Assembly: GCA_036397255.1 (NCBI GenBank)
Contig: DASWJH010000034.1
Coordinates: forward strand, 1-35,648
DNA from: Nitrospiria bacterium
Lineage (GTDB): Bacteria; Nitrospirota; Nitrospiria; DASWJH01
DNA length: 35,648 nt
Reading direction: 5' to 3'
Shown: in pieces, positions 15,100-32,883 of the stretch
Layout: each line of letters begins with the position of its first letter
How positions within the stretch are numbered: position 1 is the first letter of the stretch
Program-made: the position numbers and the translations under genes
The notes under the pieces: model-generated
What the model saw: only the letters and a program-made list of their open reading frames with translations
Told to the model about the DNA's origin: nothing
Database searches by the model: none

Positions 15100-15100
15100 A

Positions 15101-17697: not shown

Positions 17698-17930
17698 TCT
17701 TCCTCTTTTCGCTTCGTCCGACTCAATGCGGCAATCAAAAGAACTGTTGTAATACCTGCCCCTACCGACGCTTCGGTAAAGGCCACATCCACTGCATTCA
17801 GGCGGGTCCAAACCAATGCCATCATCAAACTGTAGATTCCTAAAATCATAGTCGCACCGAGAAGATCTTTCATCTGAATGGCACCGATGGCGCAAATGAC
17901 CAAAATCAGTAGAAGGAGTATGTCAATCAT
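17694..17930 (-). CDS. MbhD/DUF4040-type subunit (MrpA C-terminal domain as a separate gene)
   Basis: A 78-residue, three-helix protein with the DUF4040/MbhD pattern: KDLLGATMILGIYSLMMALV followed by NAVDVAFTEASVGAGITTVLL. The acidic residues in DVAFTEA lie in the middle helix and are conserved in MrpA C-terminal, MbhD and the NuoJ-like position. It overlaps mrpG and the MbhE-type gene by 4 nt each (ATGA). Its separation from the following MbhE module contrasts with the fused copy in the other cluster. Confidence 0.87.
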   Translation of the reverse strand: MIDILLLLILVICAIGAIQMKDLLGATMILGIYSLMMALVWTRLNAVDVAFTEASVGAGITTVLLIAALSRTKRKEEE

Positions 17931-18310: not shown

Positions 18311-18567
18311 CAATCGAGGTTTCCGCTTTGGATATACTTCAATATAGCCACCGTTGCAATGAAGTTAATGATTGCATAAACCAGGGCAATATCCAAAAAT
18401 TGGGGGCGATCATATATAAAACCAATTAAGGCTAATAGGACCACGGTCTTGGTCCCTATCAAATTGGTGGATAAAATCCGATCAAAAACGGTGGGCCCAG
18501 AAAGGGCTCGATACAACACCACCAGTATGGCAATCACAACAAAGACCGCAGCAACTTGAAACATCAT
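18310..18567 (-). CDS. mrpF: Mrp antiporter subunit F
   Basis: An 85-residue, three-helix MrpF. The signature LYRALSGPTVFDRILSTNLIGTK and the later DIALVYAIINFIATVAILKY match the family. Two ATGs start the frame (18567, 18564). GAGGG inside the end of mrpE is the likely ribosome binding site. It follows mrpE by 6 nt. Confidence 0.92.
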   Translation of the reverse strand: MMFQVAAVFVVIAILVVLYRALSGPTVFDRILSTNLIGTKTVVLLALIGFIYDRPQFLDIALVYAIINFIATVAILKYIQSGNLD

Positions 18568-18573
18568 GATTTA

Positions 18574-19041
18574 TTAACCCTCAATGGGCTTAATTCGCTT
18601 TTCCATTTCCTGAAAGCTCTGAGCATCATATTCAGTGATGGCGTGAATGATATATTGGCCTTCTTCATCCACATCGATGGTGACGGTTCCCGGTGTCAGG
18701 GTAATCGAATTGGCCAAGGCCACCCTTCCCAATTCGGTCTTTAAACGGGTTTTGGTCTTCAAAATGCTGGGTTGTATCGGCATTTTCGGATGAAGGGTCC
18801 GGTAGGCCACATCGAGGTTGGCAATCACAATCTGATATAAAAACCAAGGCAGGTATTTTATAACCTGAAAGGTTTGGTTCATTAACGTTTTTAAACGGAT
18901 CCCTTGAAACAAAAATTCATGAGAAAAAAAGGCCACCCCATAGGAACAGACCACCCCCAACATCAAATGCATGGCATCGAAATGTCCGGATAACAGAATC
19001 CAGAATGAAAAAAGGACCCCAAAAGTCAATACAACACTCAT
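18574..19041 (-). CDS. mrpE: Mrp antiporter subunit E
   Basis: A 155-residue MrpE with two to three N-terminal helices, the YLPWFLYQIVIANLDVAYRTLHP segment, then the soluble domain containing LANSITLTPGTVTIDVD, which is nearly invariant in the family. The frame is open to an ATG at 19149, but I place the start at 19041. AAGGGG lies 5 nt upstream of that ATG, and a near-consensus promoter predicts a transcript start near 19066, inside the longer reading. First gene of the minus-strand operon. Confidence 0.9.
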   Translation of the reverse strand: MSVVLTFGVLFSFWILLSGHFDAMHLMLGVVCSYGVAFFSHEFLFQGIRLKTLMNQTFQVIKYLPWFLYQIVIANLDVAYRTLHPKMPIQPSILKTKTRLKTELGRVALANSITLTPGTVTIDVDEEGQYIIHAITEYDAQSFQEMEKRIKPIEG

Positions 19042-19072
19042 TTCCACCCCTTCAGGCTTATAAAGGGCTCTC

Positions 19073-19101
19073 ATTATAGAGGGCATATAAACCCAAATCA
19101 A
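19073..19101 (-). promoter_or_regulatory. Sigma70 promoter of the minus-strand Mrp operon
   Basis: Read on the minus strand: TTGATT (19101-19096), 17 bases, then a perfect TATAAT (19078-19073). The predicted start near 19066 gives a leader of about 25 nt with a good ribosome binding site before mrpE. Confidence 0.72.
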
Positions 19102-19531
19102 GCGCCTGAACCCGATGATGCTACCATCTTTTAGAAAAGTATTCTGCATCTAATTGAGTTCTTTTGCTTTATTTTAAAAAATATTTTAAAAAAGTTCCTC
19201 AGATTCTCATAAGGTAGCAGAAAATTTTTTCCTTCAAAAAAAACCGCCTTATGATTTAGATCGGCAGTTTGATCAAGTTTCATTAGAAAAATTTAAAGGG
19301 AAAAGATAAAAATAGTATATTATTTTTCCTTTTTTTAAGAGAAAAATATTTTTGAAATGGAAACCCGAAAAGAAAAGCTCAAAGAGGGGATACTAAAAGA
19401 AGCACTGGTTTTTTCTAATTTGAAATGTAACCTTCCAATAAAAACAAATCCTATTGTTTTTAAATCCCTTTTCAGATAAAATTGCGGAAATTTCCTGGGT
19501 ATAATTTATACCTCCTCATCCCAAGGGATTC
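19102..19531. other. Divergent AT-rich control region between the two antiporter clusters
   Basis: About 430 bases of AT-rich sequence with two near-identical ATTTTAAAAAA blocks near 19170-19195. TATAAT at 19500-19505 is a possible -10 for mpsC, but I find no good -35 at 16-18 bases. I see no gene here. Confidence 0.45.
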
Positions 19532-19915
19532 ATGAAACCCATAAAGAAAAAAGGCCAGATGGAAGCGGAAATCAGCAATGCCATGGTCCAGTTTGAAAAA
19601 GAATACATGGGAAGGGGGCCAATTGAAACCAAAACCTATATCATGGATGATATGATCCTGGTTCGTCTGAATGGGGTCCTTACCCATGCGGAACAGCAAC
19701 TGGCCAAAAACCCTACAGGGACGGAGCTCATTAAAAAAATTCGGGCCAATTTATTGGAACAGGCAAGGGCGTTACTGATCGAAACCATTGAAAAAATCGT
19801 TCCCGTAAAGGTTGTAAGCCTTCATACCGATATCAGCACAAAAACGGGTGAAAGGGTTATCATTTTTACCCTTATGGAAAATTTAGAGCAGCAGTTATCC
19901 AACCATTTTTCTTGA
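19532..19915 (+). CDS. mpsC: MpsC family protein (DUF2294), copy 1
   Basis: A 127-residue soluble protein of the DUF2294 family, named MpsC after the staphylococcal MpsABC system in which MpsA is NuoL-like and MpsB is the DUF2309 protein. Family features are the MEAEISNAMVQFEKEYMGRGP opening, DDMILVRLNGVLTHAEQQLA, then KIRANLLEQARALLIETIEKI and a final beta segment with STKTGERVIIFTL. The ATG has AAGGGA 5-6 nt upstream. The biochemical role is not settled; the family often sits with transport and DUF2309 genes. It precedes dabA on the same strand, and a second copy closes the cluster at 31058. Confidence 0.86.
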   Translation: MKPIKKKGQMEAEISNAMVQFEKEYMGRGPIETKTYIMDDMILVRLNGVLTHAEQQLAKNPTGTELIKKIRANLLEQARALLIETIEKIVPVKVVSLHTDISTKTGERVIIFTLMENLEQQLSNHFS

Positions 19916-20005
19916 CCTCAATACCCACGGCGGGTTACTTTAAAGAGGATTAAGATAATCTGAATGATTCTCCATAAAAGGATCAGTTGGATTATCCGTT
20001 AATTC

Positions 20006-20095
20006 GGCCGAGAAAAATAGATCGGCTTTTTTAAAAGGTAAGGCGCACAAGCCGTGAGACAACCCTCTCGTCAGAGGGAGGTTTCGTGGAAGGTA
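20006..20095 (+). ncRNA. Structured leader region upstream of dabA (unassigned)
   Basis: A GCCGA/TCGGC hairpin (20007-20011 with 20022-20026, followed by six Ts) competes with a CGGCTT/AAGCCG pairing (20023-20028 with 20049-20054). Next is a long hairpin: 20053-20060 with 20081-20088, an AA/AG internal loop, then CCCTC/GAGGG closing a 6-nt loop. It ends just before the terminator at 20096-20138. It matches no riboswitch class I can recall. It could be an attenuator leader or a small RNA. Confidence 0.4.
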
Positions 20096-20138
20096 GGCCA
20101 GCACATTTCCTGAAAAGGGTATGCTGGTCTTTTTTTTT
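20096..20138 (+). terminator. Strong intrinsic terminator upstream of dabA
   Basis: GGCCAGCA (20096-20103) pairs with TGCTGGTC (20122-20129; one G-U), followed by nine Ts (20130-20138). It ends 117 nt before the dabA ATG, so it either ends the mpsC transcript or acts as an attenuator. Confidence 0.75.
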
Positions 20139-20255
20139 CTAACCAATAGTTGTTTTCAAAAGTTGCCCCATGAGGGCACTGAATCAATCCAAAAATTGGA
20201 TTTACATTTCCACAGTTTCGCTTCCCAATAAACGTGAAGGGAATAAAAGCAAAAA
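20139..20255 (+). other. dabA 5' region
   Basis: Between the terminator and dabA lie a TGCCC/GGGCA hairpin (20164-20168 with 20174-20178) and an ATCCAA-AAA-TTGGAT palindrome (20187-20201), a possible operator. No good promoter hexamer pair was found. AAGGGA about 12 nt before the ATG is the only ribosome-binding candidate. Confidence 0.4.
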
Positions 20256-23200
20256 ATGCCAATCGGAACTTTAGAATCAATTCATTTCAAAGCCTTAGAA
20301 AATTCCGAAAGAGCTCAAGTCCGCAACTGTGTTGATCAGGCCAATCAGTTCATCGCACGGTGCTGGCCACTGCGAACGTTTATATATCGAAATCCCCTTC
20401 AAGAGTTGGAACACCTCCCTTTCCACCAGGCCATCAACCAAGGACAGGATTTATTTGGAGGCCAGGGGTATCTTTCCAATGAATCTTATAGAAATCTTTA
20501 TCATTCAGGGAAAATAACCGACGCCTCCATTTTGGAGGCATTAAAAAAATCCCAGTGGCCTCTGGAGGTGGATAACATTCTCCCCCTTGGAAAAAAGAAA
20601 GTTGATCCAATTAAGATACTCAGACTCCATTTAATTTATGGAATGGATCCCATTCGTAATTCCATATTCCATTGGAGGGTGGGGAACGAAAAGATATTGT
20701 CCCGATACCGTTCGGATGTCCCCGTTTCAATCAGAAAAGACCCTGAAACAGGGATCATCCCTTTCCTCTGGCAGGGCATCTTGAGAACCTTGGGTATAAC
20801 CCATAACCTCGAATTCAAAGATAAATCCGAAAAGGACCCATCTTCCCCCACCACCTCCAAGGAAGGGGAAAATTTCCGGTTTTTTCTAATAGACCTTTCT
20901 AAGGTTGGAAACCGGTGGACTTTGGGTGATTGGATTCAGGAAATAACCGAGATCCCACTAAGAAAACAAATCGATGACCAGATGATAAAATGGTGTTCGG
21001 CTTTTTTAGATGAAGGCATGGCGTCCTGGGAAATGCCGTCTCGTGAAAAAGGTTTTTACCATTCGTGGCTAGATGTAGCTTCACTCGATCGATCGGCTGA
21101 AATCGGAAGAATAAAAAACTTTTCATATAAAATTCGGGGGCTTCCCCAGAACCCCGAGGACACCATTGCAGGATGCCTCACACAGATGGGTGTAAAAAAC
21201 CACCTCTGGCCCGATTATTTGAAACGTCACCTCTCTCAAATGCCAGGATGGGCAAGCTTCATAAAGTGGCGTACCAATGAGCCCGAAAATATCTGGCAAC
21301 AACTTTACCCCATTGATCCTACTCAATATTTGGCGGTCCGTCTTTTTTACGAGTCAGAACTGGTTGATTCCATTTGTCAAAAAACATGGAACATCAAAGG
21401 GTCGCTTTCCGAGATCCAAACCTTCTTTCGAAAATTTCCCGAAACTTATCCCCTGGCCAACCGGGGGGATGAGAGGGTTGAGAACCCGGCAGACCATTAT
21501 CGCTTGAACATCGCCTGGCGTTTTTTTAATCTTGCCCAATTTCTGGGTCTCGATCAGGATGATATTCAAAACCTTTCTCAAAAAGAGGTCAAAAAGGCAT
21601 TGGAACTCCTTGATGCCTTTCCATCGGAACACCATGGGGTTATTTGGCTTCAAGCCCTTGAGCTTTCCTTTCGAAAAACTCTTCTGGAAAAATTGAGTGC
21701 ACCCCATCAAAAGGATCCATCAAAGCCCCAAAGCGCCCCCCAAGCCCAGGCGATTTTTTGTATCGATGCCCGATCCGAATACCTTCGCCGCCACATGGAA
21801 AATATTGGCCCCTACGAAACATTTGGATTCGCTGGATTCTTTGGTGTTCCCATTTGTTTTCGCCCTTATGGATCAGACACCGAATGGTTGCTCTGTCCCG
21901 CTTTAATTAAACCCGAGAAAAGGGTCTTTGAAATTCCTTTGCCTGCGCATGAAAAAGAAACCCAGAAAAATGAAACGGGATCCAAATGGCATCATTCAGG
22001 GCACGGCATCTTCCATGATTTAAAAGCCAACAACTTCTCCGCTTATTTCCTGATTGATTTTCTAGGAGGTTTATTTGGCCTTACCTTTATTGCAAAAACG
22101 TTTTTCCCCTTCGCCTACCAGAGATTTCGTGAAAAGCTCCACCACCGATTGGTTCCAAAAGTTCCAACCCAGCTTCTCTTGGATCGCCCCTCTGAAGCGA
22201 ATTCATCAGAGCGAGGTAACGTGGGATTTACCCTCGAGGAGAAAACAACACTTTTAGAAAACGGCCTGCGACTAATGGGTTTAACAAACCATTTTGCGCC
22301 GGTGGTTTTTCTTTGTGCACACGGGAGCACCTCAGAAAATAATCCCTATGCGGCTGCATACGACTGCGGAGCTTGTGGAGGAAACCACGGAGGACCGAAT
22401 GCCCGGGCGCTGACCTCCATCGCCAACACCCCCGAAGTACGAAAGGCGTTAAAGGAACGGGGAATTGAAATTCCCTCTTCCACCCTATTTATAGCTGGGG
22501 AACATAACACCACAACCGATCAGGTCATTCTCCTTGATCAGGAAGCCATTCCTCCCTCTCATCACGCAAATGTATCCCAGCTTCAAAAGGACCTCGACCA
22601 AGCGGGAGGGTTGGCCGCTTTTGAGCGCGTTAAAAAGCTTCCCGGAGCCCCCCATGCAAAATCCGTTGAAAATACGTTCCGTCATGTCCGGCAAAGAAGC
22701 GGGGACTGGGCACAAGTCCGGCCAGAGTGGGGCCTTTCCAGTAACGCAGCCTTTATTATCGGAAGAAGAAAGCTGACTCAAGGAATCCCTTTAGACGGAC
22801 GGGTGTTTATGCATTCTTATGACCCGGAACAGGATGGGACCGGAAAAGCATTAGACACCATTATGACTGCCCCCCTGTTGGTGGTTCAATGGATTAGCAT
22901 GGAGTATTATTTCTCAAGCACGGATCCTTTGGTTTACGGAAGCGGGAGCAAAGTTTATCATAATGTTGTTTCAGGAGTTGGGGTTATTCTGGGTCGGCAG
23001 AGTGATTTAAGACCAGGTCTCCCCGTGCAGTCGGTCATGAACGGGGAGATTCATTTTCATGAACCCATGAGGCCTTTGGCCATTATTGAATCCCCTATTG
23101 AAAGGGTCCAGGGAATTATTGACCGCCATGAAAAACTTCAACAGCTTTTCAACAACCATTGGGTAAATCTTCTCGCTGTGGATCCCATCCTTGGGGTTTT

Positions 23201-23261
23201 TCAGGAATACCAAGGAAATGGACGCTGGGAAAGTTTAAACCTGAAAATCTCTTCCCCTTAA
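20256..23261 (+). CDS. dabA: Inorganic carbon transporter subunit DabA (DUF2309, MpsB)
   Basis: A 1001-residue cytoplasmic-face protein of the DUF2309 family. DabA carries a beta-carbonic-anhydrase-like zinc site and, with a NuoL-like partner (DabB/MpsA), converts CO2 to bicarbonate vectorially, powered by a cation gradient. The four site residues are visible: Cys502 and Asp504 in FCIDARSEYLRRH, His689 in CAHGSTSENNPY and Cys704 in YDCGACGGNHGGPNAR. The His-to-Cys spacing of 15 equals that of the studied Halothiobacillus protein. The N-terminus (NQFIARCWPLRTFIYRNPLQ) and C-terminus (EPMRPLAIIESP, NNHWVNLLAVDP) are typical. Here it heads an Mrp/complex-I-like membrane gene set, 38 nt upstream of mrpE, rather than pairing with a lone dabB. 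Confidence 0.95.
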   Translation: MPIGTLESIHFKALENSERAQVRNCVDQANQFIARCWPLRTFIYRNPLQELEHLPFHQAINQGQDLFGGQGYLSNESYRNLYHSGKITDASILEALKKSQWPLEVDNILPLGKKKVDPIKILRLHLIYGMDPIRNSIFHWRVGNEKILSRYRSDVPVSIRKDPETGIIPFLWQGILRTLGITHNLEFKDKSEKDPSSPTTSKEGENFRFFLIDLSKVGNRWTLGDWIQEITEIPLRKQIDDQMIKWCSAFLDEGMASWEMPSREKGFYHSWLDVASLDRSAEIGRIKNFSYKIRGLPQNPEDTIAGCLTQMGVKNHLWPDYLKRHLSQMPGWASFIKWRTNEPENIWQQLYPIDPTQYLAVRLFYESELVDSICQKTWNIKGSLSEIQTFFRKFPETYPLANRGDERVENPADHYRLNIAWRFFNLAQFLGLDQDDIQNLSQKEVKKALELLDAFPSEHHGVIWLQALELSFRKTLLEKLSAPHQKDPSKPQSAPQAQAIFCIDARSEYLRRHMENIGPYETFGFAGFFGVPICFRPYGSDTEWLLCPALIKPEKRVFEIPLPAHEKETQKNETGSKWHHSGHGIFHDLKANNFSAYFLIDFLGGLFGLTFIAKTFFPFAYQRFREKLHHRLVPKVPTQLLLDRPSEANSSERGNVGFTLEEKTTLLENGLRLMGLTNHFAPVVFLCAHGSTSENNPYAAAYDCGACGGNHGGPNARALTSIANTPEVRKALKERGIEIPSSTLFIAGEHNTTTDQVILLDQEAIPPSHHANVSQLQKDLDQAGGLAAFERVKKLPGAPHAKSVENTFRHVRQRSGDWAQVRPEWGLSSNAAFIIGRRKLTQGIPLDGRVFMHSYDPEQDGTGKALDTIMTAPLLVVQWISMEYYFSSTDPLVYGSGSKVYHNVVSGVGVILGRQSDLRPGLPVQSVMNGEIHFHEPMRPLAIIESPIERVQGIIDRHEKLQQLFNNHWVNLLAVDPILGVFQEYQGNGRWESLNLKISSP

Positions 23262-23299
23262 TGTGAGAAGAAACCGATGGTGGGGGAAAAGGAGCATTA

Positions 23300-23785
23300 A
23301 TGTATACTGTAGGAACATTTACTCGAAACGCTTTCCTTTTATTTCTCCTTTGGGTGCTCCTTTCAGGGAGGATGGAACCCTTATTTCTGGTTCTGGGATT
23401 GGTCACTGCTGTCGGAATTTCAGCGTTGCACGGCCGGCATCCGGAACCACCCCATCCCACCATCCCTTTTTTCCGCTTTATGTTTTTCCTTCCCTGGCTT
23501 TTTTACAGAATCTTATTAAGTAATTTCCATACCGTCTTTTTGATTCTTCACCCCCGGTTGCCGATTAATCCCAAAATGATTCTATACCAAACCCACCTGC
23601 GAAATCCCGCTGCCATAACCCTACTGGCCAATTCAATCACATTAACCCCCGGAACGGTCACCGCCGAGGTAAATTCTTCGAACCTGGTGGTGCATGCTTT
23701 GGATGAAGATTCGGCAAATGACTTGGTCACGGATCGCTTGGAAAAAAAAATTTTTTGGGTTTTTGGAAAGAAAGGAACTCAATAA
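23300..23785 (+). CDS. mrpE: Mrp antiporter subunit E, dabA-linked copy
   Basis: A 161-residue MrpE with N-terminal helices, the LPWLFYRILLSNFHTVFLILHP segment and the conserved LLANSITLTPGTVTAEV stretch. AAGGAG lies 5 nt before the ATG. It overlaps mrpF by one base (TAATG). It is clearly paralogous to the minus-strand copy at 18574-19041 but diverged in the N-terminal helices. Confidence 0.92.
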   Translation: MYTVGTFTRNAFLLFLLWVLLSGRMEPLFLVLGLVTAVGISALHGRHPEPPHPTIPFFRFMFFLPWLFYRILLSNFHTVFLILHPRLPINPKMILYQTHLRNPAAITLLANSITLTPGTVTAEVNSSNLVVHALDEDSANDLVTDRLEKKIFWVFGKKGTQ

Positions 23786-24051
23786 TGTCAATATTTTTCC
23801 TTGGAATCCTGTTGGTTTTAGCCACCATCATTTTAATCTACCTTTACCGTGTTCTACAGGGACCAACGGTTTTCGACCGACTTTTAGGGTTAAATGGAAT
23901 CTCAAGTAAGGCCATTATGCTTCTAGTGATTATCGGAACCCTCTATGAAAGGGTGCCCATGTTCGTGGATATCGCCGTGGGGTATGCATTGATCAATTTG
24001 GTCGGCGCCCTAGCCGCAGCCAAGTATTTGGAGCATAAGGATTATAGATGA
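23785..24051 (+). CDS. mrpF: Mrp antiporter subunit F, dabA-linked copy
   Basis: An 88-residue, three-helix MrpF with LYRVLQGPTVFDRLLGLNGISSKAI-type signature and DIAVGYALINLVGALAAAKYL. I place the start at 23785, where ATG overlaps the mrpE stop (TAATG); an upstream ATG at 23755 only reads back into mrpE. It overlaps mrpG by 4 nt (ATGA). Confidence 0.91.
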   Translation: MSIFFLGILLVLATIILIYLYRVLQGPTVFDRLLGLNGISSKAIMLLVIIGTLYERVPMFVDIAVGYALINLVGALAAAKYLEHKDYR

Positions 24052-24386
24052 GCGTTTTGGTGGTCGTTCTCATTTTGACTGGACTTTTTTTTCTGATCGT
24101 TGCCGCCATCGGGATGATCCGTTTGCCGGATGTTTTTACCCGATCCCACGCCCTAAGCATCACCGATACCCTGGGTATCGGCCTTGTGCTATCCGGACTA
24201 GCCCTTTATCAAGGATTCACCGACAGCGCGTTGAAAACGGTCCTCATCCTAATCCTGTTGTATCATCTAAATCCCGTCATTTCTCATGCTACCGTGAGGG
24301 CCGCATTGAGATCCGGCCTTAAACCGTGGACCCGGGAGAATCCCAAACAGGTTCCTCAAGAAAAAGAGGAGAAAAAATGTATTTAA
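24048..24386 (+). CDS. mrpG: Mrp antiporter subunit G, dabA-linked copy
   Basis: A 112-residue MrpG with GMIRLPDVFTRSHALSITDTLG and NPVISHATVRAALRSGLKPW. Where the minus-strand copy has RIHPAGKADT, this one has RSHALSITDT, a change in the conserved loop. It overlaps mrpF by 4 nt and the following fused subunit by 10 nt. Confidence 0.9.
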   Translation: MSVLVVVLILTGLFFLIVAAIGMIRLPDVFTRSHALSITDTLGIGLVLSGLALYQGFTDSALKTVLILILLYHLNPVISHATVRAALRSGLKPWTRENPKQVPQEKEEKKCI

Positions 24387-24907
24387 CGGTCGCCATCCCC
24401 CTATTGATTTTACTGGTTCTCACCGCCGCAGGAGCCATTTTTGTGAAAGATTTGATAGGTTCGGTTTTTATCCTGAGTTCCTACAGTTTTTTCCTTGCCC
24501 TTCTTTGGGCCTGGCAAGGAGCGGTGGATGTGGCATTCACTGAAGCCGTAGTGGGGGTGGGGTTGTCCACCATTTTTCTTCTACTTACTTTATTTTTGAC
24601 CGGTTCCGACATCAGCCAAACCCGGTACTATCGTTCCTCCTGGATGGTCCTGGTAGGCCTTGTGGGATTGGGGTTTATTATGGTATTCGGTGCCCAGGAT
24701 TTACCCCGTGTTGGTAATCCCGCCTCTCCGGCCAATACCCATATCTCCCCCGCCTACCTTCGACAAAGCCTGAAAGAGACCCAAACCCCCAATGTGGTCA
24801 CATCCGTGCTGATGGATTACCGTTCCATGGACACCCTGATCGAAACCACTGTAATTTTTACTGCAGGAATTGCAACCAGTCTGCTCTTAAGAAGGAAACC
24901 GGAATGA
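24377..24907 (+). CDS. Fused MbhD-MbhE-type subunit (MrpA C-terminal region)
   Basis: A 176-residue membrane protein joining two modules that are separate genes in the minus-strand operon. Residues about 1-75 are DUF4040/MbhD-like (KDLIGSVFILSSYSFFLALL, AVDVAFTEAVVGVGLST). Residues about 85-176 are MbhE-like (GNPASPANTHISPAYLRQ and TLIETTVIFTAGIATSLLLRR). The ATG at 24377 has GAGGAG 5 nt upstream; an in-frame ATG at 24326 lies inside mrpG and adds only polar residues. It overlaps mrpB by 4 nt. It supplies the part of MrpA that contacts MrpB/C in known Mrp structures. Confidence 0.9.
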   Translation: MYLTVAIPLLILLVLTAAGAIFVKDLIGSVFILSSYSFFLALLWAWQGAVDVAFTEAVVGVGLSTIFLLLTLFLTGSDISQTRYYRSSWMVLVGLVGLGFIMVFGAQDLPRVGNPASPANTHISPAYLRQSLKETQTPNVVTSVLMDYRSMDTLIETTVIFTAGIATSLLLRRKPE

Positions 24908-25353
24908 TCTTCCCCCACGATAGCACCATTGTAAAAACACTCAGTCGCATTTTGATTCCGGTAATACAGCTTTACGCGGTCTACCTCATTTTTCATGCCC
25001 AGTACAGTCCGGGAGGAGGATTTGTGGGGGGGGTTCTATTCGGGGTGAGCCTGATTTTAACGGTACTGGTTTTTGGAAGCCGCTATTCCCGAGGGTTTAT
25101 TGAAAGGGTGGCCTTTCGGTCCGATGGCCTGGGTTTAATGGTCTTTGGAGGAATTGGACTCCTTTGCATTCTTTGGGGTGGAGAGTTTCTCAATTACGCC
25201 GCACTTCAAATCCCCGGGTTGGAAAACCCCTCCAAGCGGGCTTTGGGAATTGTTGGAACCCAAATCGGAGTTGGGATTGATGTGGCCGTTGTAGCCATTT
25301 CGATTTTTTTTAGTTTATCCCCCCAGGAAAATGAGGAGGATACCCATGTTTGA
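24904..25353 (+). CDS. mrpB: Mrp antiporter subunit B, dabA-linked copy
   Basis: A 149-residue MnhB-domain protein with LSRILIPVIQLYAVYLIFHA, the glycine-rich YSPGGGFVGGVLFGVS segment and GTQIGVGIDVAVVAISIFF in the last helix. It starts with ATG overlapping the previous stop (ATGA). The mrpC start lies 8 nt inside its 3' end. Confidence 0.92.
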   Translation: MIFPHDSTIVKTLSRILIPVIQLYAVYLIFHAQYSPGGGFVGGVLFGVSLILTVLVFGSRYSRGFIERVAFRSDGLGLMVFGGIGLLCILWGGEFLNYAALQIPGLENPSKRALGIVGTQIGVGIDVAVVAISIFFSLSPQENEEDTHV

Positions 25354-25720
25354 AATTTTTTTTTCTCGGCCCAATTTTATGGCGTTTATCCTCCTCTTTC
25401 TTTTCGGGCTTTTCATCATGGTCACCCATAAGAATCTCATTAAAAAGTTGATTGGAATGTACCTTTTACAAACCAGTGTCATCCTGTTCTTTGTTGCCCT
25501 GGGAGTAAAGGAAGGGAGCACGGTTCCGATCCTCCTTTCCCCTGAATATTCCCAGGGGGCCTCCTATGCCAATCCTCTGCCCCAAGTTCTGATGCTCACC
25601 GCCATTGTGGTGGGTGTGGCAACTCTGGGCGTCTCATTGGCCCTGGTTATTGCCATCTATCACCGGTATAAAACTCTGGAAGAGGATGAACTCGTCAAAA
25701 GGCTGGAACCTGGTGAATAG
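25346..25720 (+). CDS. mrpC: Mrp antiporter subunit C (NuoK-like), dabA-linked copy
   Basis: A 124-residue, three-helix NuoK homologue with HKNLIKKLIGMYLLQTSVILFF and NPLPQVLMLTAIVVGVATLG. The start at 25346 has GAGGAGG at 25333-25339, whereas the upstream in-frame ATG at 25331 overlaps that site. The loop between helices 2 and 3 (VPILLSPEYSQGASYA) is slightly longer than in the minus-strand copy. Confidence 0.9.
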   Translation: MFEIFFSRPNFMAFILLFLFGLFIMVTHKNLIKKLIGMYLLQTSVILFFVALGVKEGSTVPILLSPEYSQGASYANPLPQVLMLTAIVVGVATLGVSLALVIAIYHRYKTLEEDELVKRLEPGE

Positions 25721-25766
25721 GCCACTACTACGCAGGTCTAACTAAGATTTAAAGAAATGATAAAAC

Positions 25767-27236
25767 ATGATGACTAACCTCCCCGCTTTTTTATTTTTAA
25801 TTCCCTTCGTGGTAGCTATCTCTATGCCCATGGTGGGCCTGATTCGCAAAAACGTCTGCTGGCCTGTGGCACTTGTGGCACTCTCCTCCATGAGTGTGGT
25901 TTCTTTTTTTGCTTTTCACCATGTCTATTTGAATGGACCCATCAGTTACCGGTTTGGTGGGTGGGCCCCTCCTCTGGGTATTGAATGGGTATTGGATGGG
26001 CTGAGCGCCTTGGTGATGATACTGGTTAGCCTCATGGGCCTTCTGACGGTGTTTTATGCAGGGCCGGGTGTCCAAAAAACCATGAGCCAAAAAATCGTGC
26101 CTATTTACACGCTGGTCTTGCTTTTAATTTCAGCGCTGACCGGGATGGTCATGGCCGGGGATCTTTTCAACCTCTTTGTGTTTTTAGAAGTGGCTTCCTT
26201 GTCCGCTTATGCATTGGTGGCCGTGGGGGGAGGGCGTGCCTTGATTTCATCTTTCCGCTATTTGATGCTGGGAACCATCGGAGCCTCGTTTTATCTGCTG
26301 GGTGTGGGATATCTCTACGCAGCCACCGGAACCCTAAATATGGGAGATCTGTCTCTTCGCCTTTCAGAAATCTTGGAATCCCGTACTGTCCTTTCAGGGG
26401 TTGTGTTCCTGCTGATGGGACTGGCGATCAAGATGGCTTTGGTTCCGTTACATGGATGGCTTCCGGACGCTTATGCCCATGCCCCGGAACCCATCTGCCC
26501 CATCGTCGCCGCATTAATGACCAAGGTTGCACTTTATGCACTGGTTCGGATCACCTTTTGGGTTTTGGGAATTGAAACCATTTTTGGAAATATTCCTTTT
26601 ATGGTTTACCTTGGATGGATTGGCGCCATTGCGACATTGGCTGGAGCGCTCCTTGCTCTCTCTGAAAAAAACATCAAGCGCATGTTCGCCTATGGCGGCT
26701 TGTCCCATGTTGGGCTTGTGGTGCTGGGTATTAGTCTGGGGAACAAGACCGGTTACACCGGCGGGATTTTTTATTTGTTAAACGATGCGGTGATGCAGGC
26801 TGGATTGTTTTTTATAGCAGGGACCCTAATATACCGATACGGGGTAAAAAACGTCTCTGATCTTACTCAAATTGGAGGGAAAATGCCCTGGACGGTAACC
26901 GCCTTAATTGTCACAGCATTGTCAATGGTCGGAATCCCTCCCACAGGGGGATTTTTCGGAAAATGGTATCTTGTTCTCGGCGCATTGGAAATCGGAAATT
27001 ACCTTGCAGTAGCCGTCATTATTGTGGGCACGCTGCTGACCTTAGCGTTTTTTATAAAAATCCTGGAAAAGATGCTTTTTGAGGAAAGGCAGGCCCCGAA
27101 GCTTCCCGGTTTAGAAGCACCATTTCCCATGCGGTTGGGAATGGGAATGGTGGTGGTCAGCATTTTGGTGTTGGGAATTTTCAGTGATCCAACGATTCAA
27201 TTAATTCAAAACGTCGCCCTTCCCTCTGGGTTCTAG
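25767..27236 (+). CDS. mrpD: Mrp antiporter subunit D, dabA-linked copy
   Basis: A 489-residue, 14-helix ion-translocating subunit. Conduction residues are intact: Glu141 (LFVFLEVASLSAYALVA), Lys222 (GLAIKMALVPLHGWLP), His229 and Lys253 (ALMTKVALYALVRI). The DAYAHAPEPICPI segment after the TM7 motif is unlike the NAYTYAPSVVG of the minus-strand copy, so the two are well-separated paralogues. It follows mrpC after 46 nt with no strong ribosome binding site (ATG at 25767 or 25770), the loosest junction in the first half of this operon. Confidence 0.91.
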   Translation: MMTNLPAFLFLIPFVVAISMPMVGLIRKNVCWPVALVALSSMSVVSFFAFHHVYLNGPISYRFGGWAPPLGIEWVLDGLSALVMILVSLMGLLTVFYAGPGVQKTMSQKIVPIYTLVLLLISALTGMVMAGDLFNLFVFLEVASLSAYALVAVGGGRALISSFRYLMLGTIGASFYLLGVGYLYAATGTLNMGDLSLRLSEILESRTVLSGVVFLLMGLAIKMALVPLHGWLPDAYAHAPEPICPIVAALMTKVALYALVRITFWVLGIETIFGNIPFMVYLGWIGAIATLAGALLALSEKNIKRMFAYGGLSHVGLVVLGISLGNKTGYTGGIFYLLNDAVMQAGLFFIAGTLIYRYGVKNVSDLTQIGGKMPWTVTALIVTALSMVGIPPTGGFFGKWYLVLGALEIGNYLAVAVIIVGTLLTLAFFIKILEKMLFEERQAPKLPGLEAPFPMRLGMGMVVVSILVLGIFSDPTIQLIQNVALPSGF

Positions 27237-27267
27237 GGTATCTCATGATTAGGAATCATAAAGTTCC

Positions 27268-29460
27268 ATGACCTGGTTTTTTATTCTAATCCCTTTGCTT
27301 CCTTTTACCGCTTTTCTTTTCCTGGTGCTATTTGGCGGACGGATAAAGGACCAATGCCATCGATTGACCATTCCGGCGTTATCCCTTTCCTTCCTTTTTT
27401 CGGTCATCGCCTTCTATACCATTTTAAAATCAGGCCCCATCCGTTTGGACCTCTATACCTTTATCGATTCAGGAACATTAAAAGTAGACCTGGGTCTTTA
27501 CCTCGACTCCCTTTCGGTTCTTCTCCTTTTATTGGTTACCGGTGTAAGCACCCTTGTTCACATCTTCTCTTCCCGCTATATGCAGGGAGACCCTCGGTAC
27601 CCCCGATTCTTTGCCGTCATTTCTCTTTTCACCTTTTCAATGCTTATGCTGACCATGAGCACCAACCTCTTCATGCTTTACCTATTCTGGGAAATCATGG
27701 GAATCTGCTCCTATTTGTTGATTTCCCATTGGGCAGAAAATCGATCTTCCTATGAATCAGCCATGAGGGCATTCTTAGTCAACGCAGCCGCTGATATCGG
27801 TCTTGGGTTGGGTATTTTTCTCACTTTTGTGACCTTTGAAACATTGGACATTCAACAGATACTGGCCGGGGCAGAAACCAAAGTGGGTCAAACGGTCAAT
27901 CTCCTTGGGTGGTTGGGCCTCCAATGGAACGTTGAAGTCCTGACCCTGATCGCATTGTTACTATTTCTCGGGGCAATGGGTAAATCAGCCCAATTTCCTT
28001 TCCACATTTGGCTTCCCTTTTCCATGGAAGCCCCTACACCGGTCTCGGCCCTGATTCACGCAGCAACGCTGGTAAAAGCCGGTGTCTTTCTTGTTCTTCG
28101 AATGAGCCCTTTGTTCATTCTATCTCCTACCGCGATGAATGTGATGATCATCATCGGGGCAATAACGGCTTTTTTAGGTGCAACGGTCGCTTTAACACAA
28201 ACGGATATCAAAAGGATCTTGGCCTATTCCACCATGAGCCAATTGGGATTGATGATACTGGCTTGCGGTGCGGGAGCCTTTATCGCCGCTACATTTCACC
28301 TGCTGGCCCACGGGGCCTCAAAAGCTTTTCTATTCCTCTCTGCCGGAAGCGCCCTCCAACACCTTGAAGCAACTCCTCACGTTGAAAAAGAAGAACAACC
28401 AACAGCATGGTTTGCCTTCCCCCCTTCTACTTTAATCAGTGCGTTCTCTTTAGCTTGGCTTTCCCCCGTGTTGATTGCCTTGAGCGGATATGGAATGCTC
28501 TGGTTTAGTCCGAGGTCTAACGGACTCTCTCCTCTGTTTTGGTTCATTGCCTTAATGACCGTTTTCCTTACGGCTTTGCATCTTTCCAGAGGGTTAAACC
28601 GTGGAACAAACAAAAAAATGGGCCCGCCCGGGGTCACCCCTTCATTGGTATCTCCCAACTCCTCACTTTTTTTGGGTTTACCAGGCCTTGGCCCAGCGGT
28701 ATTGATTGCCACTATTTCCAGCTTGGTTCTCGCCGGGGCACTTGCCTGGTTCTGGGGCGGTATCACCACATTTCTTTACCCCACGGTGGCACTTTCGGAG
28801 TTACCCCCAAACCCCTCCAAATTGAGTTTTTTCACCATGATGCTTATATTGGCAGGGTTTGGTGCAGCTCTTTTAGGCCTAATCTTTTCGCAGTTTAATC
28901 TTTATGGATTCATCCAAGGTTCTCCAAAAAGGGTGGGATGGTATAAGCGGTTTTATGTTCTGACCCATAACAAATGGTACATGGATGAAATCTGCGATGC
29001 CTATATCGTTCGCCCAAATTTAAAGTTTTCCCGCTGGCTTTGGGAGGCCGTTGATATGCGGCTCATTGAACGTTTCACCCTGTTTTCAGCGGATGGTACC
29101 GTTTCATTTTCCAGGTGGTTATGGAAATCTGTGGATGTTCGGATCATTGGGAGGGTGATTGAAGGAACTGCCGGATTGACTGTCGGTTTGGCGCGCTGGC
29201 TTTGGGCCTCCGTAGACATTCGCGCGCTGGGATGGCTAGTGGATGGAACGGCAAAAATCACCCAACAAACGGCGGGGTGGCTTTGGCGCTCTGTGGATAT
29301 CCGCTGGTTAGAGCGATTTGTAAATGGCATTGGCAGAAAAAACGAGGCTGCTGGACAAACGCTTCGTGAAATTGAACCCAGCATGCTTCAGCATCAGTTA
29401 TTGGTCATGATCTTTGCGTTGGTTGCGGCATTGATTCTTTTTCTACTATTCTTACTATAA
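27268..29460 (+). CDS. nuoL: NuoL-like antiporter subunit with four C-terminal 27-residue repeats (possible DabB-type partner)
   Basis: A 730-residue membrane protein. The core has Glu142 in TM5 (YLFWEIMGICSYLLIS), Lys239 in TM7 (GAMGKSAQFPFHIWLP), His246 and Lys270 in TM8 (MEAPTPVSALIHAATLVKAG). The N-terminal part is NuoL-like; the VKAG ending of the TM8 motif is MrpA-like. After about residue 560 the NuoL-type NKWYMDEICDAYIVRP segment leads into four exact-length 27-residue repeats (residues 588-695), each beginning (S/A)(R/G)WLWxxVDxR, then a final membrane helix. In complex I this area is the long lateral helix along the membrane arm. It may be the DabA partner or an arm-extending subunit. 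Upstream lies a small ATGATT-AGG-AATCAT palindrome. Confidence 0.88.
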   Translation: MTWFFILIPLLPFTAFLFLVLFGGRIKDQCHRLTIPALSLSFLFSVIAFYTILKSGPIRLDLYTFIDSGTLKVDLGLYLDSLSVLLLLLVTGVSTLVHIFSSRYMQGDPRYPRFFAVISLFTFSMLMLTMSTNLFMLYLFWEIMGICSYLLISHWAENRSSYESAMRAFLVNAAADIGLGLGIFLTFVTFETLDIQQILAGAETKVGQTVNLLGWLGLQWNVEVLTLIALLLFLGAMGKSAQFPFHIWLPFSMEAPTPVSALIHAATLVKAGVFLVLRMSPLFILSPTAMNVMIIIGAITAFLGATVALTQTDIKRILAYSTMSQLGLMILACGAGAFIAATFHLLAHGASKAFLFLSAGSALQHLEATPHVEKEEQPTAWFAFPPSTLISAFSLAWLSPVLIALSGYGMLWFSPRSNGLSPLFWFIALMTVFLTALHLSRGLNRGTNKKMGPPGVTPSLVSPNSSLFLGLPGLGPAVLIATISSLVLAGALAWFWGGITTFLYPTVALSELPPNPSKLSFFTMMLILAGFGAALLGLIFSQFNLYGFIQGSPKRVGWYKRFYVLTHNKWYMDEICDAYIVRPNLKFSRWLWEAVDMRLIERFTLFSADGTVSFSRWLWKSVDVRIIGRVIEGTAGLTVGLARWLWASVDIRALGWLVDGTAKITQQTAGWLWRSVDIRWLERFVNGIGRKNEAAGQTLREIEPSMLQHQLLVMIFALVAALILFLLFLL
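29029..29352 (+). repeat. Four tandem 81-bp coding repeats in the nuoL-like gene
   Basis: Four in-frame units of exactly 81 bp encode SRWLWEAVDMR, SRWLWKSVDVR, ARWLWASVDIR and AGWLWRSVDIR starts at a constant 27-residue period. The second halves also align (IEGTAGL, VDGTAKI, VNGIGRK). NuoL proteins usually have about one such unit. Confidence 0.9.
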
Positions 29461-29474
29461 GAAGACGCACCCCC

Positions 29475-29503
29475 TTTTACCCTGAACGGGGTTTAGGGTA
29501 AAA
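29475..29503 (+). other. Hairpin between the nuoL-like and nuoM-like genes
   Basis: TTTTACCCT (29475-29483) and AGGGTAAAA (29495-29503) form a perfect 9-bp stem with an 11-nt loop, 15 nt before the nuoM-like ATG. An A-run rather than a U-run follows, so this is more likely an mRNA processing or stability element than a terminator. Confidence 0.5.
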
Positions 29504-29518
29504 AAACGGTTTCACATT

Positions 29519-31054
29519 ATGGACAATCTTCTTCAAAACCATCTTTTAAGCATCATTCTCTTTTTTCCCGCCTTGGGGATGACCATCATGGCGTTTGTTA
29601 AACATCCCACGGTAGTGCGTTGGATCGCACTTGGCTTTTCCATGGTCACATTTCTTCTATCGCTCCTTCTATGGTTCCGGTTCGACCCCAATCACCCAGG
29701 CATGCAGTTCGTTGAACAGGCTGAATGGATGCCGACCTTTAACATTCAATATGCAATCGGCATTGATGGAATTAGTATTCTCATGGTCATGCTCACGACG
29801 CTCTTGACGCCATTATGCGTCATTTGTTCCTGGACCAGCATACAGGAAAGGATTAAGACCTTCCTTATGCTTATTCTTTTGGTAGAAACGGCCATGCTGG
29901 TGGTATTCACCGCCTTGGACCTTTTCCTGTTTTTCATGCTGTGGGAAACCACCATGATTCCCATGTATTTTATAATCGCGCTCTGGGGAGGCCCTCGGCG
30001 AATTGCGGCCGGTCTTAAATTTGTGATTTACAGCATTGTCGGAAGCCTTTTCCTTCTGGTTGGGATTTTAGGTCTTTATCTTGAAGGCGGAAAAACCTTT
30101 GACATAATCATTTTAACCTCCCAGATTTATTCCGGAGACGCCCAATTTTGGATTTTCCTGACCTTGTTTTTAGCCTTCGCAATTAAACTGCCGATGTTTC
30201 CTTTTCACACCTGGCTTCCAGACGCCCATGCGGAGGCCCCCACCGCAGGAAGCGTTATCTTAGCGGGCATTCTATTAAAAATGGGGGGGTACGGTTTTCT
30301 CCGGTTGGTTTTACCCATGCTTCCCGAAGCCATGGTCACTTTTACGCCCTGGGTATTGTGGCTTTCGATTATAGGGATTTTGTATGGCGGTTACATGGCA
30401 CTTGCGCAAAGCGATATCAAGCGACTCATTGCTTATTCTTCCATTTCACACATGGGGTTCGTCACCCTTGGAATCTTTGTTTTGAACAAACAAGGGATTG
30501 AAGGGGCAGTCCTTCAGATGTTTAACCATGGCATTACGACAGGGGCATTATTTTTTGCGGTTGGTTTTCTGTATGACCGTACCCATAAAAGAATGATTTC
30601 CGATTATGGTGGGCTTCATAAACCCATGCCCCGTTTTATTACATTTTTCTTTATTTTTTCAGTTGCATCCTTCGGGCTTCCAGGAACCAATAACTTTATT
30701 AGTGAATTTCTGGTGTTGATAGGAACCTCTCTTCATAGCTTCATCATGGTGATCCTGTCCATAGGAGGGATTCTTCTCGCCGCATCCTATATGCTTTGGA
30801 TGATGCAACGTGTGGGATTGGGTCAGATCAAACATCAAAGCAACGCATCTTTACCTGACCTGACACCTCGTGAAACCGCCACTTTGGTTCCTCTAATCAT
30901 TTTGGTCTTCTGGATTGGTCTCTATCCGCGACCCTTTTTTAAAATAATGGATTCCAGTGTAACACACCTGCTCAGGATGATCCCCTCGGCTCAGGGGACT
31001 ATTTTAAAAACAGAAGACAGCCCATCTCAAAAGAATGCGAATCCAGGAGGATAA
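29519..31054 (+). CDS. nuoM: NuoM-like antiporter subunit
   Basis: A 511-residue, 14-helix protein closer to complex I NuoM than to MrpD. It shows the opening PALGMTIMAFV, AIGIDGISILMVMLTTLLTP, Glu143 (FFMLWETTMIPMYFIIALWGG), Lys223 (FAIKLPMFPFHTWLPDAHAEAPT), His230 and Lys254 (LLKMGGYGFLRL). SISHMGFVTLGIF and GTNNFISEFLVLIG are also NuoM hallmarks. No NADH- or quinone-module genes accompany it. The ATG at 29519 has no obvious ribosome binding site. The downstream mpsC begins 4 nt after its stop. Confidence 0.92.
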   Translation: MDNLLQNHLLSIILFFPALGMTIMAFVKHPTVVRWIALGFSMVTFLLSLLLWFRFDPNHPGMQFVEQAEWMPTFNIQYAIGIDGISILMVMLTTLLTPLCVICSWTSIQERIKTFLMLILLVETAMLVVFTALDLFLFFMLWETTMIPMYFIIALWGGPRRIAAGLKFVIYSIVGSLFLLVGILGLYLEGGKTFDIIILTSQIYSGDAQFWIFLTLFLAFAIKLPMFPFHTWLPDAHAEAPTAGSVILAGILLKMGGYGFLRLVLPMLPEAMVTFTPWVLWLSIIGILYGGYMALAQSDIKRLIAYSSISHMGFVTLGIFVLNKQGIEGAVLQMFNHGITTGALFFAVGFLYDRTHKRMISDYGGLHKPMPRFITFFFIFSVASFGLPGTNNFISEFLVLIGTSLHSFIMVILSIGGILLAASYMLWMMQRVGLGQIKHQSNASLPDLTPRETATLVPLIILVFWIGLYPRPFFKIMDSSVTHLLRMIPSAQGTILKTEDSPSQKNANPGG

Positions 31055-31057
31055 TCA

Positions 31058-31417
31058 ATGGATTCTTTAAAAAACCTTGAGAAAAAAATTTCAGTTGATT
31101 TTTCTGACTTTTATGAAAAAGAAATGGGTTTTAAGCCTCCTCTCGTAAAAACCGCCATACAGGAAGACCTCCTCATTATTCGTATTGAAAATGCTCTGTC
31201 CCCTTCTGAAATTATTTTGATCAGCCAGGAAACAGGAAAAAGATTAATCAAAGAAATGAATGAAAAATTGGCTGAGGAAATATTACCTAATTTACAAATC
31301 GTTCTTTTTCCTTTGACGGGGAAAAAAGCAGTCGGACTTGAAATCGAGCTTCATGAACGGGGCCACGAAAAAGTGTTCCTGATCACGCTAGAATCTCCTA
31401 ATGAAGTCTCTTCTTAA
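31058..31417 (+). CDS. mpsC: MpsC family protein (DUF2294), copy 2
   Basis: A 119-residue soluble protein that aligns along its length with copy 1: an N-terminal helix SDFYEKEMGFKPP, the DLLIIRIENALSPSE strand-helix, a LIKEMNEKLAEEILPNLQIVL segment and a C-terminal GHEKVFLITLE strand. Identity to copy 1 is low by eye, so it is an old paralogue or a different subgroup. GGAGG lies upstream and it starts 4 nt after the nuoM-like gene, so it is co-transcribed. It ends the dabA-Mrp-Nuo operon. Confidence 0.75.
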   Translation: MDSLKNLEKKISVDFSDFYEKEMGFKPPLVKTAIQEDLLIIRIENALSPSEIILISQETGKRLIKEMNEKLAEEILPNLQIVLFPLTGKKAVGLEIELHERGHEKVFLITLESPNEVSS

Positions 31418-31742
31418 AAGAATATCCAGAAGTGTTCTTAATGAAGGTCTCAGCGGCAAGACCGCGGGGTATCAAAAAGCCCCCTCCCTTAATCCCTCCC
31501 CCCTCGATGGGGGGAGGGAAGGTGGGGGGTGGAGATGGTTTTGGGAACCCCATCCAGAGATAAGTCGAAGGGCCCGCTACAACAGATCTACTGCGTCCCA
31601 CGCCGCAAGCGGCGGGGAATTGCCAGTTAAATTAACCCCTAATCCATTCAATCTCCCAACAGAGACCAGAAGAGATTTTTGCATTTGGTCTACCACCCCC
31701 CGAACCTATTCTTTAAATGGAATTGAGGGTCCCCAGAAATTT
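31418..31742. other. Non-coding gap between mpsC copy 2 and the sbtA leader
   Basis: The stretch includes a GC-rich palindromic repeat, a CGCCGC-AA-GCGGCG hairpin near 31600-31615 and unrecognised sequence. A possible weak promoter (TTGGTC 31685-31690, TATTCT 31707-31712, 16-base spacer) precedes the sbtA leader. An open frame through it has low-complexity proline/glycine content and looks spurious. Confidence 0.45.
31480..31530. repeat. GC-rich dispersed palindromic repeat
   Basis: CCCTCCCCCC (31494-31503) and GGGGGGAGGG (31509-31518) form a perfect 10-bp stem with loop TCGAT. Outer arms (CCCCCTCCCTT and AAGGTGGGGG) pair imperfectly. It is the same style as the element at 1511-1552 and probably a dispersed intergenic repeat. 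Confidence 0.6.
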
Positions 31743-31828
31743 GCTTGACCCGGAAGTATTTATTGGTGTTGAATGTCCGATTAGGAAGATAGCGGGAAGG
31801 GTCCTTGATTCAAAATAACCGGTCAAGC
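31743..31828 (+). promoter_or_regulatory. Candidate structured leader (aptamer-like) of sbtA
   Basis: GCTTGACC(C)GG at 31743-31753 is complementary to CCGGTCAAGC at 31819-31828, giving a 10-bp stem with one bulge that closes about 65 nt. Within it TTGAAT (31769-31774) pairs with ATTCAA (31808-31813). The terminator stem starts 4 nt later, the layout of a riboswitch or attenuator. It matches no class that I recognise. Confidence 0.42.
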
Positions 31829-31896: not shown

Positions 31897-32883
31897 ATGG
31901 CCGAGTTTTTTCAGCATTCACTCAATAACTTTCTTTCCCCGATGATCTTGTTTTTCATCTTGGGATGGGTGGCTGTATTGGCAAGGGCTAAAATGGAGCT
32001 CCCTGAAGAAATGGTCCGGGCCATGTCCTATTACCTCATGGCATCCATCGGGTTAAAGGGAGGCATTGAACTTGCCCACGAGGGGTGGAGTGTTTCAGTA
32101 ATCCTGGCTTGCCTGGCTGGTGTCTTTTTGGCAGGGTTACTTCCGGTTATTGGCTACGCAATCATCCGATGCTTCAGCGGCCTTTCGGCATTGAATGCGG
32201 CCGCTATCGCGGCCCACTATGGATCCGTCAGTGCAGTGACTTTCCTAACCGCTGCAACTTTTTTGACACGGCAAGGATATACCTATGAGGGGTACACAAT
32301 TGCGATGATGGCAGTAATGGAATCCCCCGCCATCGCCGTTGGAATCCTCCTCGCACGGCTTTCCTCTCAGGCTTCAACGCAATCCGATGGGGATACCTCT
32401 TTTAAAGAAATTCTCCGGGAGTCTCTTTTTAACGGTAGCGTGATGGTCCTTATGGGGGCCCTCATTATCGGAGCCCTCACAGGCGATCGGGCCCAAGAAG
32501 CCGTTGGCCCATTTTTCTTTAACCTCTTTCAAGGGGTGCTCTGCCTCTTTTTATTACACATGGGGGTTGAGGCCGCAAAACGTTTTTCAACCTTCAGGGA
32601 AGTAGGCGTCTTTCTAACCTTTTTTGGCCTTCTCATGCCCTTGATCGGAGCGAGTCTTGGGCTGTTCACAGGATGGCTGCTGGGTTTATCCGCGGGAGGA
32701 ACCATGTTGATTGCCATTTTGGGAGCCAGTGCTTCCTATATTGCCGTCCCCGCTGCCATGCACTTGGCCCTTCCCAAGGCGAACACGGCTTATTCCATGA
32801 CCCTTGCACTGGGCATCCCCTTTCCATTTAATGTCATTTTAGGAATCCCGCTTTACTTTTGGATTGCCCGGTTGATCACATAA
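31897..32883 (+). CDS. sbtA: Sodium-dependent bicarbonate transporter SbtA
   Basis: SbtA imports bicarbonate with Na+ across the inner membrane. The 328-residue product is an all-helical protein with two similar halves of about five helices. Family segments visible are FFILGWVAVLARAKMELPEE, YYLMASIGLKGGIELA and AAIAAHYGSVSAVTFLTAA with YEGYTIAMMAVMESPAIAVG. The last of these carries the conserved ligand-site stretch of the SbtA (PF05982) family. The central loop (about residues 155-175, SSQASTQSDGDTSF) is short compared with the cyanobacterial protein of about 370 residues, where this cytosolic loop is part of regulation. AAGGAGGGG precedes the ATG. sbtB follows after 18 nt. Confidence 0.92.
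   Translation: MAEFFQHSLNNFLSPMILFFILGWVAVLARAKMELPEEMVRAMSYYLMASIGLKGGIELAHEGWSVSVILACLAGVFLAGLLPVIGYAIIRCFSGLSALNAAAIAAHYGSVSAVTFLTAATFLTRQGYTYEGYTIAMMAVMESPAIAVGILLARLSSQASTQSDGDTSFKEILRESLFNGSVMVLMGALIIGALTGDRAQEAVGPFFFNLFQGVLCLFLLHMGVEAAKRFSTFREVGVFLTFFGLLMPLIGASLGLFTGWLLGLSAGGTMLIAILGASASYIAVPAAMHLALPKANTAYSMTLALGIPFPFNVILGIPLYFWIARLIT

Follow-up and report, generated by a model that had tools for sequence, protein, structure and literature searches.

Conserved linkage of dabA to Mrp, nuoL and nuoM genes in at least three bacterial phyla suggests a larger ion-driven carbon pump

DabA is a bacterial enzyme that turns CO2 into bicarbonate. In a Nitrospiria bacterium (GenBank assembly GCA_036397255.1), the dabA gene is found inside a block of genes encoding Mrp-type and complex-I-like membrane subunits, at 19532-31417 of a 35,648-nucleotide stretch of contig DASWJH010000034.1, here called the window. 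The block is a real, conserved gene module that occurs in several phyla. Its order, kept across at least three of them, suggests an ion-driven carbon pump of larger size, as yet undescribed as a unit. This would very probably be a DAB-type pump that has been enlarged and has a NuoL-like subunit in the place of DabB. Pfam and NCBIfam scans of the window proteins gave the following gene identities:

19532-19915, + strand: mpsC, first copy (PF10057, Pfam E-value 8.4e-40)
20256-23261, + strand: dabA, beta-carbonic-anhydrase-like subunit (PF10070, 873.7 bits, profile positions 1-747 of 747)
23300-23785, + strand: mrpE (PF01899, 1.3e-34)
23785-24051, + strand: mrpF (PF04066, 9e-13; on inspection of the start, its ATG overlaps the mrpE stop)
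24048-24386, + strand: mrpG (PF03334, 1.3e-22)
24377-24907, + strand: mbhD-mbhE fusion, equivalent to the C-terminal part of MrpA (PF13244, 2.6e-15; PF20501, 1.2e-8)
24904-25353, + strand: mrpB (PF04039, 2.7e-23)
25331-25720, + strand: mrpC, NuoK-like (PF00420, 1.1e-22)
25767-27236, + strand: mrpD, antiporter-like subunit with a canonical motif in transmembrane helix (TM) 12 (PF00361, 7.1e-56)
27268-29460, + strand: nuoL-like, the proposed DabB equivalent (TIGR01974, 456 bits, over the cut-off)
29519-31054, + strand: nuoM-like antiporter subunit (TIGR01972, 608 bits, over the cut-off)
31058-31417, + strand: mpsC, second copy with a weaker match (PF10057, 5.9e-18)

These genes had all been named in an earlier reading made from the sequence alone, and the scans recovered each of them at these coordinates, in this order and on this strand. 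From mrpE to mrpC successive genes overlap by a few bases or nearly so, the gaps along mrpC-mrpD-nuoL-nuoM are 31-58 bp, and 3 bp separate nuoM from the second mpsC. The first mpsC may not share the dabA transcript, since a hairpin resembling an intrinsic terminator lies between the two genes. The block had also been said to lack a redox module, and indeed no Pfam match to the redox-module families (hydrogenase-like, NuoB/C/D/H/I) was obtained among the genes tested in 9.2-35.3 kb.

The order dabA-mrpEFG-mbhDE-mrpBCD-nuoL-nuoM was found at 21 further loci where the genes are adjacent, in Nitrospirota, Planctomycetota and Latescibacterota, and 17 of these are complete to nuoM; at two additional loci the block is interrupted, and at one dabA is unlinked. 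A ten-gene order recurring in three phyla is far beyond chance, and the association of dabA with Mrp genes is not confined to this genome. When GTDB contigs were scanned, the DabA proteins closest to that of the window (43-50%) came from Planctomycetota (L002, L003, L004, L022) and Latescibacterota (L005), where the mrp genes keep this order over the stretch that each contig covers. About 20 more DabA proteins of this type, nearly all from one family, were found in 396 Nitrospirota genomes, 15 of them encoded beside the mrp block, and L255 is one further adjacent dabA-mrp locus. The type is present in only 1/392 Planctomycetota and 1/64 Latescibacterota genomes sampled. At L231 and L234 the Mrp-type dabA is separated from the mrp block by a single-DabB-type DAB pair with a PII-like gene, which puts two DAB systems next to each other. 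In the closed genome G039 (loci L189 and L131), dabA is about 260 kb away from an mpsC-mrpEFG-mbhDE-mrpBCD-nuoL-nuoM block that is otherwise the same; upstream of this block an open reading frame (ORF) resembling a LysR-type regulator and an mpsC are found.

In a sample of 58 genomes of the class, this DabA type together with an MrpD scoring above 500 bits occurs only in the host (G000) and in G039, and the next MrpD match outside the window reaches 209 bits. The DabA-linked MrpD proteins form a clade with 100/100 support. In the MrpD, NuoL and NuoM trees the Planctomycetota proteins stand beside those of G039, with the window protein outside, a pattern that fits movement of the block between phyla as a unit. 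The Mrp-linked DabA proteins are not one clade; in a quick tree, the type with NuoL and NuoM and no Mrp genes is nested inside them (Shimodaira-Hasegawa-like approximate likelihood ratio support of 97), and Mrp linkage may thus be the older state. The window DabA is a long branch whose exact placement is unsure.

The structure of DAB2 shows how DabA sits on its membrane partner. The DabA finger places Glu444 where NuoL has Lys399/Asp400 of TM12, DabB has its TM12-14 displaced and carries an Ile at the position of NuoL TM5 Glu144, a member of a regulatory ion pair (PMC13144422). When searched with a regular expression, which is crude for NuoM, the TM12 ion motif was found in none of 26 DabA-linked NuoL proteins and none of 57 DabB proteins, and in both NuoL proteins of the host's complex I (2/2). 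The TM5 Glu is present in 26/26 DabA-linked NuoL proteins (Glu142 in the window) and 2/2 host complex I NuoL, compared with 0/57 DabB. The DabA-linked NuoL proteins also keep the TM7 Lys (26/26) and the TM11 Lys (25/26, with one Arg). Three conduction subunits, each with Glu/Lys/Lys, had been proposed. For the NuoL-like subunit this does not hold, as it has lost the canonical TM12 site; the MrpD of the block retains the motif.

The NuoL-like subunit thus seems to offer space for the finger, as DabB does, and to retain lateral coupling, as in complex I, and it looks like DabA's partner and seat. The loss of the TM12 site, the retained TM5 Glu and an Asp in the finger column of DabA together make the strongest sequence argument for a putative interface between the two. 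In the NuoL tree the DabA-linked proteins branch apart from DabB, each group being well supported. A separate canonical dabB elsewhere in the genome had been named as a possible true partner, and this candidate was rejected: none of the 15 PF00361 proteins of the host is DabB-like. Six of them are encoded in the window, and the other nine resemble complex I or hydrogenase-like clusters.

The zinc-site residues of the window DabA align exactly with those of DAB2 (PDB 9rd0), Cys502 to C351, His689 to H524 and Cys704 to C539, and so do Asp504 (D353) and Arg506 (R355) of the Asp-Arg dyad. The intact set Cys502, Asp504, His689 and Cys704 reported earlier is therefore borne out. The zinc set is intact in all complete DabA proteins of the Mrp and NuoL+NuoM types, and the equivalent of Leu658 is conserved in the window protein. 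In the finger column the window DabA has Asp601 instead of the conserved Glu (E444 of DabA2), so that acidity is retained. All DabA proteins of the Mrp and NuoL+NuoM types that could be scored have Asp here; among the single-DabB types, 55/58 have Glu. An AlphaFold2 (AF2) model of DabA (mean predicted local distance difference test score, pLDDT, 73) had beta-carbonic anhydrases as its best, weak PDB matches (E 0.004), and 9rd0 was not among the matches. Separately, loci L243, L245, L248, L249 and L258 encode giant DabA proteins of about 1450 amino acids with an insertion of about 430 residues, an Asp finger and no linked antiporter-like gene; an ORF resembling a SulP transporter lies near that of L248.

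MrpA-N is a homologue of NuoL, and MbhD/E of MrpA-C (PMC7419157). In the block MrpB to MrpG are present, and MrpA is represented by the separate MbhDE and by the NuoL-like protein without its TM12 site; because of these homologies the Mrp set is complete only when NuoL is counted. Two acidic motifs of MbhDE are conserved among 23 such proteins, DVAFxEA in 22/23 and DTxxE in 23/23, and read DVAFTEA and DTLIE in the window. By motif, and without alignment to MrpA, these acids are equated with E706, D792 and E796 of the MrpA Na+ path (PMC7419157), and Na+ coupling is accordingly possible. Pairwise distances of DabA follow those of NuoL (r 0.92), MrpD (0.89) and NuoM (0.81), as shared ancestry alone can make them do. 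MpsAB has been argued to use Na+.

The NuoL-like subunit of the window carries four tandem repeats of 27 residues in its putative lateral helix, at about residues 590-675. The repeats (RWLWxSVDxR...) are spaced by exactly 27 residues and occur in two to four copies across homologues, among them L003, L226, L230 and L233, and the tail lengths of homologues step by about 27 residues. Counted from the NKWYMDE motif, the lateral-helix-like tail of the window protein is 163 residues long; the AF2 model of this NuoL is poor (pLDDT 61). NuoL tails encoded with Mrp genes measure 135-136 or 162-163 residues; the host's two complex I NuoL proteins have tails of 85 and 112. The longer of these belongs to a NuoL-M-M-N cluster of the 2M complex I type on host contig C59 (L127), its tail exceeding that of L128 by 27 residues.

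The host genome (3.35 Mb, 97% complete) encodes one DabA. Its alanyl-tRNA synthetase is 54-61% identical to those of the same class, 54-57% to those of Nitrospira/Nitrospiraceae loci and about 41% to those of Planctomycetota, which places the host on a deep branch of Nitrospirota, without a further member of its family among the sampled relatives. ATP-citrate lyase is present, and neither a RuBisCO large chain nor a beta-carbonic anhydrase was detected in the genome; the host is therefore most likely an autotroph using the reductive tricarboxylic acid (rTCA) cycle, as judged from these genes.

Four further features lie within or around the block:

11596-19149, - strand: divergent second Mrp cluster with E, F, G, MbhD (17694-17930), MbhE, B, C and three MrpD-like genes
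20042-20138, + strand: structured leader separating the first mpsC from dabA; it contains a T-run and a hairpin that resembles a terminator (folding energy -43.2 kcal/mol, z -2.85)
31897-32883, + strand: sbtA-like Na+/bicarbonate symporter gene, a functional neighbour (PF05982, 1.4e-110)
32902-33249, + strand: gene for a PII-like protein, SbtB candidate and functional neighbour (PF00543, 6.9e-15)

The leader is possibly an attenuator. It had no Rfam match, a search for known riboswitches upstream of dabA was negative, and its core motif was not found in the other related loci fetched. At many related loci mpsC adjoins dabA, mostly divergently. In the class, many dabA genes have a weak match to the PII-like protein beside them, and L255 has one behind nuoM. 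The divergent Mrp cluster, possibly an Na+/H+ partner outside the conserved block, was not seen near dabA at the other loci examined. Two ORFs without Pfam match were also noted on the + strand: one at 31401-31748, which overlaps the end of the second mpsC and is probably not a gene, and one of 332 amino acids at 33590-34588 with a GLSS/HSMG-like motif as in alpha/beta hydrolases.

Taken together, the block probably encodes one membrane complex, a vectorial carbonic anhydrase of the DAB kind whose Mrp/MBS-type arm has several channels and no redox subunits. CO2 would bind at the zinc site of DabA, which would be inactive until ions flow. The hydrophobic finger (about residues 566-632, with Asp601 near the tip) would enter the NuoL-like subunit at the lost TM12 site, and the two would build a half-channel, in the manner of DabB in DAB2. 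The TM5 Glu/Lys pair would couple neighbouring channels, the long repeat-bearing lateral helix would clamp NuoM and MrpD alongside, and MrpB/C/E/F/G with MbhDE would cap the row as an Na+/H+ exchange module of the Mrp/MBS kind. Inward ion flow through several coupled channels would then drive the irreversible hydration of CO2 to bicarbonate and dispose of the proton made, the gain being more driving force per CO2 than in a single-channel DAB, or Na+ as the payer. The expanded or hybrid pump of the sequence-only reading agrees with the conservation of the block and with the absence of a canonical DabB and of redox subunits; assembly as one complex, the DabA-NuoL interface, the direction of flow, the stoichiometry and the Na+ drive are inferred. 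It is more tentative, and rather doubtful, that an Mrp/MBS arm with a non-redox DabA head makes up a distinct energy-coupling class, where an Na+ gradient could pay for bicarbonate and the number of channel subunits would set the ratio of ions to CO2.

Several observations weigh against such a complex. R175 of the second ion pair of NuoL is lost in the window protein. The orphan giant DabA proteins, which have no linked channel, also show Asp at the finger, and this residue was thus rejected as an exclusive mark of NuoL+NuoM partners. DAB2 is driven by H+ and independent of Na+ (PMC13144422). The lateral helix was not adopted as a strict ruler of subunit number, because NuoL tails without Mrp genes span 92 to 145 residues and the two tail classes with Mrp genes (135 and 163) are accompanied by identical listed subunits. 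Finally, Nitrospira relatives have dabA-nuoL-nuoM clusters without Mrp, which shows that some relatives do without it.

These Mrp-less clusters also favour a merely functional neighbourhood, in which DabA would work with the NuoL-like subunit, perhaps also NuoM, next to a separate Mrp Na+/H+ antiporter that sustains the Na+ gradient on which SbtA-type uptake of bicarbonate draws and clears the protons of CO2 hydration. The sbtA/sbtB-like genes downstream and the second, full Mrp cluster upstream fit this, and mrp+nuoLM+bicA clusters have been published as ion homeostasis systems (PMC7784846). However, the block has no separate MrpA antiporter half, and as MrpA-N is NuoL-like (PMC7419157) the NuoL-like protein would have to serve both; nuoL-nuoM still close the row of mrp genes where dabA is unlinked (G039), and the Mrp-linked NuoL has the long repeat-bearing helix. 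This explanation is considered less likely.

The putative Na+-path acids, and the mainly saline or alkaline lineages from which related mrp-nuoLM clusters are reported (PMC12342949), would also suit an Mrp antiporter regulated by CO2, with DabA sensing or using CO2/bicarbonate to gate Na+/H+ exchange and pH or Na+ homeostasis as the output. This is improbable for an rTCA autotroph in which RuBisCO and beta-carbonic anhydrase were undetected, with bicarbonate-transport genes next to the block and all catalytic residues, the Asp-Arg dyad among them, conserved. Least probable of all, and very much so, is that the system runs in reverse, exergonic bicarbonate dehydration or another DabA reaction pumping ions outward, as proposed for ybcC operons in 2017. 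The number of membrane genes could then set the number of ions pumped (PMC5700660), but hydration by DAB2 is vectorial with the reverse dehydration blocked (PMC13144422), the Leu658 equivalent is conserved, and CO2/bicarbonate interconversion yields little energy.

To our knowledge, the membrane arm common to complex I, the membrane-bound hydrogenase (MBH), the related sulfur reductase (MBS) and Mrp bears redox modules as its heads, where it has a head at all. If the proposed complex is real, a DabA head would mean that the same arm is powered by, or powers, a non-redox reaction. DAB, dabA-nuoL-nuoM and dabA-Mrp-nuoLM would then form a natural series with one, two and three antiporter-like subunits for tests of coupling rules. 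In marine and alkaline nitrite oxidisers, the mrp-nuoLM clusters, until now regarded as tools for salt and pH, would be re-read as inorganic-carbon pumps, and a stronger or Na+-powered CO2 pump would be on offer for engineering.

Among known systems, DAB2 (DabA2-DabB2) of Halothiobacillus neapolitanus shares with the window the DabA fold family, the identical zinc and Asp-Arg set, a partner without the TM12 ion site and an acidic finger residue (PDB 9rd0, PMC13144422). It differs in having one membrane subunit versus about nine, no TM5 Glu in DabB, no Mrp genes, no lateral helix of such length, and a finger Glu where the window has Asp with a four-residue insertion. DAB systems had been taken to couple DUF2309 to a single NuoL-like subunit. 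This is not always so, as ybcC(dabA)-nuoL-nuoM-SulP clusters (COGNAT 'clade C') were reported in 2017 with the proposal that more membrane genes mean more ions (PMC5700660). The Nitrospira dabA-nuoL-nuoM loci (L021, L023, L024, L034, L036, L046) fall in the same DabA, NuoL and NuoM clades as the window genes, with the Asp finger, the TM5 Glu kept and TM12 lost; they lack mrpEFG-mbhDE-mrpBCD and, being nested in the DabA tree, possibly arose by Mrp loss.

In Nitrospira, mrp genes clustered with nuoL/nuoM, and in one case also with bicA, have been described and read as Na+/H+ antiporters with extra mnh-like genes (PMC7784846, PMC12342949; 2020 and 2025). Those of lineage IV probably are the same or a related cluster in relatives of the host, and DabA is unmentioned in the portions of these papers that were available. 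The association of dabA with Mrp was not found in the open-access literature, which is weak evidence, as subscription papers and preprints were outside the scope.

With Mrp (MrpA-G) and the MBS and MBH arms the block shares MrpE, F, G, MbhD/E, B, C and D in MBH-like order and the acidic motifs of the putative Na+ path, and its NuoL-like subunit has a putative lateral helix like that of MrpA-N or MbsH'. Unlike them it has an extra NuoM and a NuoL-like subunit without the TM12 site, and DabA takes the place of the hydrogenase or sulfur-reductase module. Cyanobacterial NDH-1MS resembles the proposed complex in that a complex-I-like arm carries a CO2-hydrating subunit, but it is electron-driven and its hydration subunit is unrelated, whereas the block has no redox module (PMC13144422 and general knowledge). 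The 2M complex I of Nitrospira (PMC9040806, PMC12342949) also contains an additional NuoM, and its lateral helix is extended by about 26-27 residues; it is a redox enzyme, and the host has its own copy of it on contig C59.

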